DNA from: Nitriliruptoraceae bacterium
Lineage (GTDB): Bacteria > Actinomycetota > Nitriliruptoria > Nitriliruptorales > Nitriliruptoraceae
Direction of reading: 5' to 3'
Length of the DNA stretch: 35,974 bases
Assembly (NCBI GenBank): GCA_007133465.1
Contig: SLMP01000008.1
Coordinates: 1 to 35,974 of the forward strand
The notes under the pieces are model-generated. The model ran no database searches and was not told the origin of the DNA. It saw only the letters and a program-made list of their open reading frames with translations. A program made the translations under genes and the position numbers. This document shows, piece after piece, positions 30,925-35,644 of this stretch; position 1 is the stretch's first letter; each line of letters opens with the position of its first letter.

Positions 30925-31520
30925 TGCGCATCGTCGCGGGCGCCGCGAAGGGCCGTCGCCTGGTCGCCCCGAAGGGCACGGACGTCCGGCCCACCTCCGA
31001 CCGGGTGAAGGAGGCGCTGTTCTCCTCGCTCCAGCCGGTCCTGCCCGCGGCGCGGGTGCTCGACCTGTTCGCCGGTTCCGGTGCCCTCGGCCTCGAGGCC
31101 CTGTCCCGCGGGGCGACGAGCGTGACCTTCGTGGAACGGTCCCGACCCGCCCGTGACGCCCTCCGCCGCAACATCGAGGTGGTGGCGCTGCCCGGCACGC
31201 ACGTCGTCGTCGGCGAGGCCGCCACCGCCTTGCGAGGCGAGCTGCCCGGCGGGCCCTTCGACCTCGTGCTCCTCGACCCGCCCTACCACCACCCGAAGGC
31301 GGCGCTCGCCGGGCTGCTCGAGGCGCTCGTGGCGCACCTCGCCCCCGGCGCCCGCGTGGTGCTGGAGCGGGCCGCCCGCGACGGCACCCCACCGTGGCCC
31401 GCCGGCCTGCTGCCCGGCACGCCCCGTCGCTACGGTGACACGGCGCTGCACGTCGCCGAGCACGTGGTGCGCGACGGCCTGGACGACGAGGACGACGAGG
31501 ACGACGAGGAGTCGCGATGA
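30924..31520 (+). CDS. rsmD: 16S rRNA (guanine966-N2)-methyltransferase
   Basis: This 198-residue SAM-dependent methyltransferase modifies G966 of 16S rRNA. It has RPTSDRVKEALFS at 22-34, the SAM motif LDLFAGSGALGLEALSRGA, and the catalytic LLDPPYHHP with DPPY at 118-121. The body ends in a run of Asp/Glu residues encoded by three perfect 9-base units (31482-31508), an acidic tail absent from most RsmD. The ATG overlaps the preceding stop by one base, and the end overlaps coaD by four, so all three genes form one tightly packed unit. Confidence 0.95.
   Translation: MRIVAGAAKGRRLVAPKGTDVRPTSDRVKEALFSSLQPVLPAARVLDLFAGSGALGLEALSRGATSVTFVERSRPARDALRRNIEVVALPGTHVVVGEAATALRGELPGGPFDLVLLDPPYHHPKAALAGLLEALVAHLAPGARVVLERAARDGTPPWPAGLLPGTPRRYGDTALHVAEHVVRDGLDDEDDEDDEESR
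31482..31508 (+). repeat. Three 9-base units encoding the acidic tail of RsmD
   Basis: GACGACGAG is repeated three times without mismatch and codes for alternating Asp-Asp-Glu. Copy number could vary by slippage without a frameshift. Confidence 0.8.
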
Positions 31521-31996
31521 GCGTCGGCGTGGTGTGCCCCGGCAGCTTCGACCCGATCACGCTCGGTCACCTCGACGTGATCGAGCGGGCGGCCGCCCGC
31601 TTCGACCGGGTCGTGGTCGCCGTGCTCGACAACCCCCGCAAGTCCGCGCTGTTCACCGCCGACGAACGCATCGCGATGATCGAGGCGGAGACGGCCGCGC
31701 TGGACAACGTCGAGGTGGACCGCTTCGAGGGGCTGCTCGTCGACCTCTGCCGCGATCGGGGCATCGGCATCATCTGCAAGGGGCTCCGGGCCGTCAGCGA
31801 CTTCGAGTACGAGCTGCAGATGGCGCAGATGAACCAGCGCATCGGCGGCGTGGAGACGATCTTCCTGTCGACGGCGCCGGAACACTCCTACCTCTCGAGT
31901 TCGCTGGTCAAGGAGGTCGCACGGTACGGCGGCCCGATCGACGGCACCGTGCCAGCGGCGGTCGCGGCGGCCCTCGTCGCCAAGCTCGGGGGCTGA
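31517..31996 (+). CDS. coaD: Phosphopantetheine adenylyltransferase
   Basis: This 159-residue hexameric nucleotidyltransferase makes dephospho-CoA from 4'-phosphopantetheine and ATP, a rate-limiting step of CoA synthesis. The nucleotide-binding T-x-G-H motif is in CPGSFDPITLGHLDVI. KGLRAVSDFEYELQMAQMN and the closing SYLSSSLVKEVA (ISSS/S-x-x-x-K-E region) are all present. Length is exactly the family's. The ATGA overlap with rsmD gives coupled translation. Confidence 0.97.
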   Translation: MSVGVVCPGSFDPITLGHLDVIERAAARFDRVVVAVLDNPRKSALFTADERIAMIEAETAALDNVEVDRFEGLLVDLCRDRGIGIICKGLRAVSDFEYELQMAQMNQRIGGVETIFLSTAPEHSYLSSSLVKEVARYGGPIDGTVPAAVAAALVAKLGG

Positions 31997-33426: not shown

Positions 33427-33606
33427 ATGGCCGTCCCGAAGCGCAAGATGTCGCGCTCCCGCACCCGCCACCGCAAGGCCCAGTGGCTGCGCACGAGCGC
33501 CCCGACCTACGCCACCTGCAAGCGCTGCAAGGCGCCCACCCGCCCGCACACCGTGTGCGGGACGTGCGGCACCTACGCCGGCCGCACGGTGCTCGACGTC
33601 GACTGA
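33427..33606 (+). CDS. rpmF: 50S ribosomal protein L32
   Basis: This 59-residue ribosomal protein begins MAVPKRKMSRSRTRHRKAQW and has the zinc-binding pair CKRC and CGTCG near the C-terminus (C-x2-C-x9-C-x2-C), the C+ form. It lies between yceD and rnc, the common bacterial order. The rnc start follows 4 bases after its stop. Confidence 0.97.
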   Translation: MAVPKRKMSRSRTRHRKAQWLRTSAPTYATCKRCKAPTRPHTVCGTCGTYAGRTVLDVD

Positions 33607-33610
33607 TCCC

Positions 33611-34327
33611 GTGGCGAGCGACGCGTGGCCCTCGGCCGCGGAGCTGGCGGCCCGCCTCGACGTCCACCTCGATGACGTCGAGCTGCTCGAACGTGCCCTC
33701 ACGCACCGCTCGTGGGCCTTCGAGCAGGGAGATACGGCCACCAACGAGCGGCTCGAGTTCCTCGGTGATGCGGTGCTCGGGCTGGTGGTCACCGACGAGA
33801 TCTTCCACGCCCACCCGGACGAGCAGGAGGGGCGGCTCGCGAAGGTGCGCTCGGCCGCGGTGAAGACCGGGTCGCTCGCGGCCGTCGCCCGCGAGCTCGG
33901 GCTCGGGCGGTTCGTGCGGCTGGGCCGCGGCGAGGCGGCGTCCGGTGGCGCCGACAAGGACTCGATCCTGGCGGACACCCTCGAGGCGGTCGTCGGCGCC
34001 GTCTACCTCGACCAGGGCTTCGCGTCCGCGTACGACCTCGTGGAGCGGCTGTTCGGGGCGCGCCTGCGCGAGCTCGCCGGCCACGGGGCGGCGCTCGACT
34101 TCAAGACCAGCCTGCAGGAGCTCGCCGCTGCCCGTTTCGACGAGCTGCCCCGCTACGAGGTGTCCGACACCGGTCCCGACCACGCGAAGACCTTCACCGC
34201 CGTGGTGCGGGTCGCCGGCGAGGTCGTCGGTCGCGGCGTCGGCGCCAGCAAGAAGCAGGCGGAACAGGACGCGGCCCGGGAGGCCTACGGGCACCTCGCG
34301 ACAGCGGCCGGAGCCACCCCGCTCTGA
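33611..34327 (+). CDS. rnc: Ribonuclease III
   Basis: This 238-residue Mg-dependent double-strand RNA nuclease processes rRNA and other transcripts. The catalytic domain has the signature NERLEFLGDAVLGL (45-58), in which E49 and D53 match the conserved E. coli E41 and D45; D122 and E125 in ADTLEAVVGAVYLD complete the metal site. A dsRNA-binding domain fills the C-terminus (DFKTSLQELAAARF to ASKKQAEQDAAREAYGHL). The GTG at 33611 lies 4 bases after the rpmF stop with no independent ribosome site, so it is coupled to L32. Confidence 0.96.
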   Translation: MASDAWPSAAELAARLDVHLDDVELLERALTHRSWAFEQGDTATNERLEFLGDAVLGLVVTDEIFHAHPDEQEGRLAKVRSAAVKTGSLAAVARELGLGRFVRLGRGEAASGGADKDSILADTLEAVVGAVYLDQGFASAYDLVERLFGARLRELAGHGAALDFKTSLQELAAARFDELPRYEVSDTGPDHAKTFTAVVRVAGEVVGRGVGASKKQAEQDAAREAYGHLATAAGATPL

Positions 34328-34411: not shown

Positions 34412-34479
34412 GTCGGCCGGCCCGGCCGCCACCTCGTTCGAGATCTGCCGGCCCGACGGCCGGACCCAGGAGGCCACCC

Positions 34480-35325
34480 GTGCTGGAGCTGCCCGAGGTC
34501 GAGGTCCTGCGCAAGGAGCTCGAGAAGGAGGTCGCCGGCAAGCGCATCAAGGACGTCGAGGTCCGCTCCCCGGGCGTCGTGCGCCCGTTCCACCGCAACC
34601 GGCCGGACTTCACCAAGGCGCTCGAGGGACGCAAGGTGGAGGCCGTGCGACGCCGCGGCCGGATGCTGTTCCTCGACCTCGGCGAGGGCGCGACCTGGAT
34701 CATCGATCCGGGTGAGGGCGGCTCCTTGCACCGCGAGACCGCCGCGGAGGAGCTCGCCGAGGACACCCACCTGGCGGTGCGGTTCACGATCGGTGGGGCG
34801 CTGCACCTCTCCGAGGCCGCCGAGGAGCCGACGATCCGCACGGGGATCGTGCCGACGGAGGGGGCGGAAGAGGCCGCCGGCATCGGTCCGGACGCGATCG
34901 ACCTGCTCGACGACAACCCGACCTGGATGGAGTTCGGGCGGTTCCTGGCCGCCGCGAACAAGCCGCTCAAGCTGCTGCTCGTCGACCAGCAGATCGTCGC
35001 CGGGCTCGGTCCGGTCTACTCCGACGAGATCCTCTGGGAGGCCGGGTTGCGGCACGATCACCCGTCGGCCCAGCTGTCCACACAGGAGATCCGGCGCCTC
35101 TACCGCGCGACCCAGGAGGTCATCGTCGCGGCGATGAAGGCGGCCGGCAGCAGCCTGGACGACGCCGAGGCCGAGTCGATGATCGACGACGACGGCGAGG
35201 TGGCCGAGCACCTGCGGGTCTACGGGCGCGACGGCCTGCCCTGCCCGCGCTGTCGGCGGCCGATCAAGCGGACGCGGCTGCGCAAGGGCGTCTACACCTA
35301 CCACTGCGAACAGTGCATGATCTGA
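34480..35325 (+). CDS. Fpg/MutM-family protein lacking the catalytic residues
   Basis: This 281-residue protein has the Fpg/Nei build: an N-terminal beta-sandwich starting MLELPEVEVL, an H2TH region (FLAAANKPLKLLLVDQQIVAGLG) and a C-terminal zinc finger (C255, C258, C276, C279). Key positions differ from active enzymes. The N-terminal nucleophile proline is Leu2 (E3 remains), the lysine of R-R-x-K-Y is R61, the HLGMSG segment reads DPGEGG, the DPRRFG loop is absent, N of GxGN is P178, and the zinc-finger arginine is V271. The start is fixed by AGGAGG six bases before the GTG. It occupies the position of housekeeping mutM after rnc. I infer loss of classical glycosylase activity; it may be a DNA-binding or repurposed member. 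Confidence 0.88.
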   Translation: MLELPEVEVLRKELEKEVAGKRIKDVEVRSPGVVRPFHRNRPDFTKALEGRKVEAVRRRGRMLFLDLGEGATWIIDPGEGGSLHRETAAEELAEDTHLAVRFTIGGALHLSEAAEEPTIRTGIVPTEGAEEAAGIGPDAIDLLDDNPTWMEFGRFLAAANKPLKLLLVDQQIVAGLGPVYSDEILWEAGLRHDHPSAQLSTQEIRRLYRATQEVIVAAMKAAGSSLDDAEAESMIDDDGEVAEHLRVYGRDGLPCPRCRRPIKRTRLRKGVYTYHCEQCMI

Positions 35326-35353: not shown

Positions 35354-35644
35354 GTGACGTCGGAGCAGCACGTCGCACGGCGCGTCGTGGTCGCCGGGCG
35401 CGTCCAGGGAGTCTTCTTCCGCAGCGCCACGCGGCAGCAGGCGCAACGTCACGGCGTGGCCGGGTGGGTCGCGAACCGGCTGGACGGGACCGTGGAGGCG
35501 TGGCTGGAGGGTCCGGCGGACGCGGTCGAGGCGGTCGAGGCCTGGATCCTGACCGGTGGGCCACCGGCGGCCGAGGTGCGCCACTACGACCTGGCGGTCG
35601 AGACCCCCGAGGGTCACACCGGGTTCGTGGTCCGGCGCGGGTAG
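35354..35644 (+). CDS. acyP: Acylphosphatase
   Basis: This 96-residue small alpha/beta enzyme hydrolyses acyl phosphates. The substrate loop GRVQGVFFRSATRQQA holds the catalytic arginine, and GWVANRLDGTVEAWLEG holds the catalytic asparagine and the structural G-x-V-E-x-x-x-x-G pattern. Length is typical. The GTG start follows GAGGAGGGCGGG. It lies 28 bases downstream of the Fpg-like gene and is probably co-transcribed, the usual actinobacterial order before smc. Confidence 0.94.
   Translation: MTSEQHVARRVVVAGRVQGVFFRSATRQQAQRHGVAGWVANRLDGTVEAWLEGPADAVEAVEAWILTGGPPAAEVRHYDLAVETPEGHTGFVVRRG

Follow-up and report, generated by a model that had tools for sequence, protein, structure and literature searches.

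The gene that follows rnc in the 35,974-nucleotide stretch of Nitriliruptoraceae DNA analyzed here (hereafter the window) stands where the 8-oxoguanine glycosylase gene mutM is expected, and it raises the question of why a protein without the residues for catalysis and lesion reading should be kept there. The first-pass annotation had described its product as an Fpg/MutM homologue with Leu2 instead of the proline nucleophile, Arg61 instead of the lysine of the R-R-x-K-Y motif, DPGEGG instead of HLGMSG and hence no intercalating Met, no DPRRFG loop, Pro178 instead of the conserved Asn and Val271 instead of the zinc-finger Arg, and each of these replacements is borne out by the translation (Table 1), which reads SEAAEEP from residue 111 where DPRRFG is expected. 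Pro2, the RRGK lysine, the Met-Arg-Phe triad, the GNIY asparagine, and the zinc-finger arginine of an Fpg enzyme are all absent, and we refer to such proteins as stripped MutM. The landmarks of the fold and the four zinc-finger cysteines (C255, C258, C276, and C279) are kept, as had also been claimed. Glu3 is retained in the window protein and its order; Gln, Tyr, Leu, His, or Asn takes its position in other orders of the class.

Table 1. Coordinates of the stripped MutM gene, its altered and signature residues, and its neighbors in the window.
Feature	Position	Strand	Basis
coaD	31517..31996	+	
rpmF (ribosomal protein L32)	33427..33606	+	
rnc (RNase III), upstream neighbor	33611..34327	+	
AGGAGG ribosome-binding site, 6 nt 5′ of GTG	34468..34473	+	sequence
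Stripped MutM/Fpg homologue, 281 aa, GTG start	34480..35325	+	ORF list, Pfam, AlphaFold
Nucleophilic N-terminal Pro replaced by Leu2	34483..34485	+	sequence; conserved in order
RRGR (residues 58–61) in place of RRGK	34651..34662	+	sequence, alignment
DPGEGG (76–81) at the HLGMSG site; no intercalating Met, no His	34705..34722	+	sequence, alignment
SEAAEE (111–116) at the DPRRFG site; no wedge Arg or Phe	34810..34827	+	sequence, alignment
Asp141 signature: 100% of stripped, 100% of active rnc-linked MutM, 4% of Fpg2	34900..34902	+	
Trp149 signature: 100% of stripped, 84% of active rnc-linked MutM, 0% of Fpg2	34924..34926	+	
GNIY asparagine replaced by Pro178; rest of H2TH motif retained	35011..35013	+	sequence, Pfam H2TH
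QEIRRLYRATQE helix, residues 202–213	35083..35118	+	alignment
Zinc finger: four Cys, R257-x-R259; phosphate-binding Arg replaced by Val271	35233..35319	+	sequence
acyP (acylphosphatase), downstream neighbor; in relatives smc comes next	35354..35644	+	

The start of the frame had been considered well fixed, and this stands: the AGGAGG motif is in place, and from the upstream stop near 33769 as far as 34480 the frame contains no ATG, GTG, or TTG, which leaves no upstream start that could yield a proline. A CTG at 34489 does precede a Pro codon, and was rejected as an alternative start with an N-terminal Pro as it is poorly spaced from AGGAGG and three residues out of Fpg register. Processing of a Met-Leu N-terminus by methionine aminopeptidase is not expected.

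The window protein scores above the Pfam cut-offs for Fapy_DNA_glyco (PF01149, 73.2 bits, E 3.6e-20) and H2TH (PF06831, 61.9 bits, E 5.8e-17), and below those for zf-FPG_IleRS (14.6 vs. 21.3 bits) and for the NCBIfam equivalogs TIGR00577 (159.6 vs. 203.3) and PRK01103 (171.4 vs. 212); the two NCBIfam cut-offs are passed by an active rnc-linked MutM and by Fpg2, the second Fpg described below. According to the AlphaFold model (pLDDT 91.5, 74 aligned sequences) the full Fpg fold is predicted to be kept. A Foldseek search with this model returned MutM/Fpg proteins as all of the top PDB matches, MutM–DNA complexes aligning at TM scores of about 0.84 (query) to 0.90 (target), and MutM/Fpg proteins are also the nearest relatives with solved structures. 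A weak Pfam match suggesting a link to NFACT/RqcH (E 1.9e-4) was rejected as specific evidence, the active protein L132 scoring better.

Alignment with relatives revealed that the substitutions run through the entire class and are found again in other parts of the phylum. Of 36 genomes of the window's order, 34 have an ortholog, at 56–80% identity, the relatives bearing names being nearly all Nitriliruptoraceae (Actinomycetota, class Nitriliruptoria). All 49 genomes of the class sample gave a match and nearly all have the ortholog; in one (G023) only an Fpg2-type copy was seen. The N-terminus reads MLELPE in the window's order and MTQLPE, MTYLPE, MSHLPE, MMLLPE, or similar in other orders, and one relative (G002) has Pro2 with all other diagnostic residues gone. 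In family f4 and one genus of f1 the zinc cysteines have been lost as well, and even there the R-x-R at 257/259 persists. Since Leu2 and the other losses reappear in further genomes of the window's family, they are not sequencing errors; recurrence across genomes of the family and the class likewise led us to reject an assembly error. The stripped protein occupies the ancestral mutM place: nearly every one with sufficient flank is the X in the conserved, single-strand order coaD-DUF177-rpmF-rnc-X-(acyP)-smc, in which the active MutM of other families of the phylum has the same position, and in mycobacteria fpg1 adjoins rnc (PMC2734929).

A second, intact fpg, the presence of which had been raised by the first-pass annotation, was found on another contig of the same genome (G000:C142, L001). 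This protein, Fpg2, has all catalytic and reading residues intact (MPELPEVE, RRGKF, HLGMTG, DPRRFG, GNIY, and RGTTYC) and is one of four Fpg/Nei family members in the genome, the others being the window protein, L003, and L004, one of the latter two Nei-like. Fpg2 forms one clade (SH-aLRT 99–100). A phylum-wide search showed that further families have rnc-linked MutM of either kind, stripped or intact, and placed Fpg2 in 55 of 396 genomes, all within families with stripped MutM (Fpg2 profile: full-length matches 374–443 bits, three partial ones 251–334 bits, best other protein 294 bits). In a blind prediction from the presence of Fpg2, all nine Fpg2 genomes had stripped MutM and 16 of the 19 Fpg2-free genomes had intact rnc-linked MutM; two of the three misses (G420 and G423) have another type of intact Fpg. 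Family f85 is mixed in the predicted manner, with five stripped members that have Fpg2 and two intact members that do not, and no genome examined combines Fpg2 with an intact rnc-linked MutM. Phylogeny-corrected pair tests pointed in the same direction in almost every pairing, the few independent pairs giving no significance. Fpg2 appears to carry out 8-oxoguanine repair in these genomes.

MutM trees require two to four changes of state, and with the motif columns removed a single origin of the stripped proteins is not rejected (p-AU 0.60). The tree of the neighboring genes (Rnc + RpmF + CoaD) requires six changes, four of them forced by supported branches, and on this tree a single origin is rejected (p-AU 0.0003). 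As the two kinds of tree differ, we give the number of losses as a range: catalysis is likely to have been lost at least twice, and probably four or more times.

We consider it likely that the ancestral rnc-linked MutM turned into a retained pseudoenzyme, repair having passed to a second Fpg and a non-catalytic job having been kept. A second Fpg, which was Fpg2 except in one family with a different Fpg, would have been acquired and have taken over 8-oxoguanine excision; the old MutM would then have lost its nucleophile, catalytic lysine, and lesion-reading residues, in Nitriliruptoria also its basic charge, and would have been kept for a job that needs a folded protein and for which catalysis is dispensable. 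The earlier proposal that the mutM position is held by a likely pseudoenzyme is supported by the residues lost and the intact fpg elsewhere, and judging by its sequence the window protein is likely to be catalytically inactive. In mycobacterial Nei2 (MsmNei2) both Pro2 and the equivalent lysine are required for AP lyase activity (PMC11323726), which supports this reading of stripped MutM.

Stripped proteins of the Nitriliruptoria have a mean pI of 5.4 and a net charge of −11, compared with a mean pI of 8.7 for active rnc-linked MutM. Across 17 paired genomes the pI ranges are 4.7–6.3 (stripped, about 5 on the whole) and 7.8–11.2 (Fpg2, about 10), and since Fpg2 is basic in the same genomes a salt-adapted proteome was ruled out as the cause of the acidity. 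The pairing of an acidic stripped MutM with a basic Fpg2 suggests that DNA binding has probably been weakened or lost in Nitriliruptoria; outside the class the shift toward acidity is less pronounced (mean pI of group B, 7.75), so that this loss may not hold there. The charge bears on the alternative that survives best, which we nonetheless regard as unlikely: that stripped MutM binds DNA or lesions without cutting, as a damage sensor, a shield, or a recruiter for Fpg2. The full fold, the H2TH domain, and the zinc cysteines of the window protein would fit such a role, but the lesion-reading triad, the flipping Asn, and the zinc-finger Arg are all missing, the zinc cysteines are gone in several lineages, and the strongly negative charge in Nitriliruptoria stands against a clearly positive Fpg2 in the same genome. 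With the DNA-contacting residues and the net positive charge gone, the role of the retained pseudoenzyme is most likely non-enzymatic protein binding, as a scaffold or regulator.

Quite improbable, in our judgment, is an active glycosylase or lyase that uses a different nucleophile, comparable to the Val of NEIL3, for instance an N-terminal Thr or Ser. Many orthologs do begin with MT or MS and could be processed to a free Thr or Ser, but the Met-Leu of the window protein would stay unprocessed. The P2A variant of MsmNei2 retains glycosylase activity on 5-OH-U; however, the lysine essential in that enzyme (K51; both PMC11323726) is replaced in nearly all orthologs, as is Glu3 in many, and the lesion-reading residues have all been lost together.

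Pairwise dN/dS (Nei–Gojobori) lies at 0.06–0.33 for stripped pairs, vs. 0.12–0.23 for intact pairs, which indicates purifying selection on the protein. This leaves very little room for a frame kept for cis reasons, be it translational coupling or mRNA structure in the rnc–smc operon: the order of the locus is very conserved, but low dN/dS and invariant residues mean selection on the protein sequence, and the 152-nt gap after rnc in the window makes tight coupling unlikely. Hardly credible, and largely refuted, is the view that the gene is decaying toward loss or arose from faulty sequencing or assembly. The many lost catalytic residues and the MAG assembly might point that way, but reading frames of full length throughout the class, dN/dS values far below 1, and invariant non-catalytic residues contradict it; stripped MutM is neither an artefact nor a decaying pseudogene.

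Within the preferred reading, a retained pseudoenzyme, the likely carrier of the second job would be the C-terminal lobe, made up of the H2TH helices and the zinc ribbon, the signature of which (D141/W149/Q202/R205/R206/R209/R259) is largely common to the still-active rnc-linked MutM of related lineages. D141, W149, R205, R206, R209, and R259 are present in 98–100% of stripped and 84–100% of active rnc-linked MutM and mostly absent from Fpg2, and the three arginines of the QEIRRLYRATQE helix (R205, R206, and R209) are invariant in the former and near-invariant in the latter. A signature common to stripped and active rnc-linked MutM and mostly not found in Fpg2 is our main argument for an older non-catalytic role, a second job that probably predates the loss of catalysis. 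These residues could also be structural instead of forming an interface. More tentatively, and with our opinion almost evenly balanced, the rnc-linked MutM of these actinobacteria may be a two-function protein, a glycosylase with a non-catalytic role that repeated losses of catalysis, following the gain of Fpg2, uncovered as a protein in its own right.

With Fpg/MutM (TIGR00577; PDB: 1l2b, 1r2y) the window protein has the whole fold, the H2TH motif, and the zinc cysteines in common, as well as the rnc-adjacent locus known from mycobacteria (PMC2734929); it differs in lacking Pro2, the RRGK lysine, HLGMSG/DPRRFG, the GNIY asparagine, and the zinc-finger arginine, in being acidic, and in falling under the family cut-off. 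The nearest precedents are the truncated Fpg2 of Mycobacterium tuberculosis (PMC2734929) and the Val of NEIL3. In M. tuberculosis, likewise an actinobacterium, a functional Fpg/Nei homologue is accompanied by a non-canonical one, Fpg2 (Rv0944), which is truncated there and full length in M. smegmatis and M. avium (PMC2734929), whereas the window protein is full length, located at the rnc locus, and conserved class-wide. In NEIL3 a Val replaces the Pro, and zincless fingers occur in the superfamily (PMC11323726, PMC9266487), those of NEIL1 and plant FPG resembling the finger loss in the Cys-less orthologs of stripped MutM. NEIL3, NEIL1, and plant FPG are active enzymes, however, whereas stripped MutM has lost its other catalytic and reading residues too.

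Pseudoenzymes occur in many protein families. No description of a conserved, recurrent Fpg/MutM pseudoenzyme was found in the literature searched, which lay mostly outside subscription journals. Retention of the stripped copy suggests that it has a second job, and the sequence of acquiring a second enzyme, losing catalysis, and keeping the protein amounts to a natural experiment on what else this textbook repair enzyme may do besides repair; it supplies a definite list of residues and, for tests, an active protein matched with an inactive one. For annotation, stripped mutM loci should not be counted as 8-oxoG repair genes.

Several genomes depart from the common arrangement. In G054, G398, G501, and G509 a stripped protein was found and an intact Fpg was not seen; the first three are about 2 Mb each, with stripped MutM as the only copy found (loci L298/L081, L146, and L276), and G054 has no PF01149 protein other than stripped MutM. 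Family f81 has a different intact Fpg beside the stripped MutM (L293 in G423 and L294 in G420; MPELPEVETVRRGL / MPELPEVETIRKGL), which makes it likely that Fpg proteins of more than one type have served as replacements. One genome of the Nitriliruptoraceae family (G014) has two Fpg2 copies (G014:C107:457-1248 and G014:C115:9445-10236). In family f17 an extra Fpg-like gene lies between rnc and the stripped mutM (L135:4902, minus strand; L139:2156, plus strand), its product beginning MPELPELDVLAENLA and ending in the C-terminal tail LADRRRSRFLR. The rnc-linked gene of G366 (L158, f71) and the Fpg2 genes of G160 (L230) and G130 (L231) are split over at least two frames, reflecting either assembly frameshifts or recent decay.

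The rnc-linked MutM of family f12 (L137, L140, L184, L202, L205, L207, L208, L210, and L211, from G065, G079, G103, G113, G123, and G143) is otherwise fully intact and starts M-E-L-P-E-V, the Pro codon being absent. Fpg2 was not found in these six genomes. A stop lies directly 5′ of the start in several of the loci, and Met1 would hold the usual Pro1 position; from the sequence, its primary amine may serve as the nucleophile.
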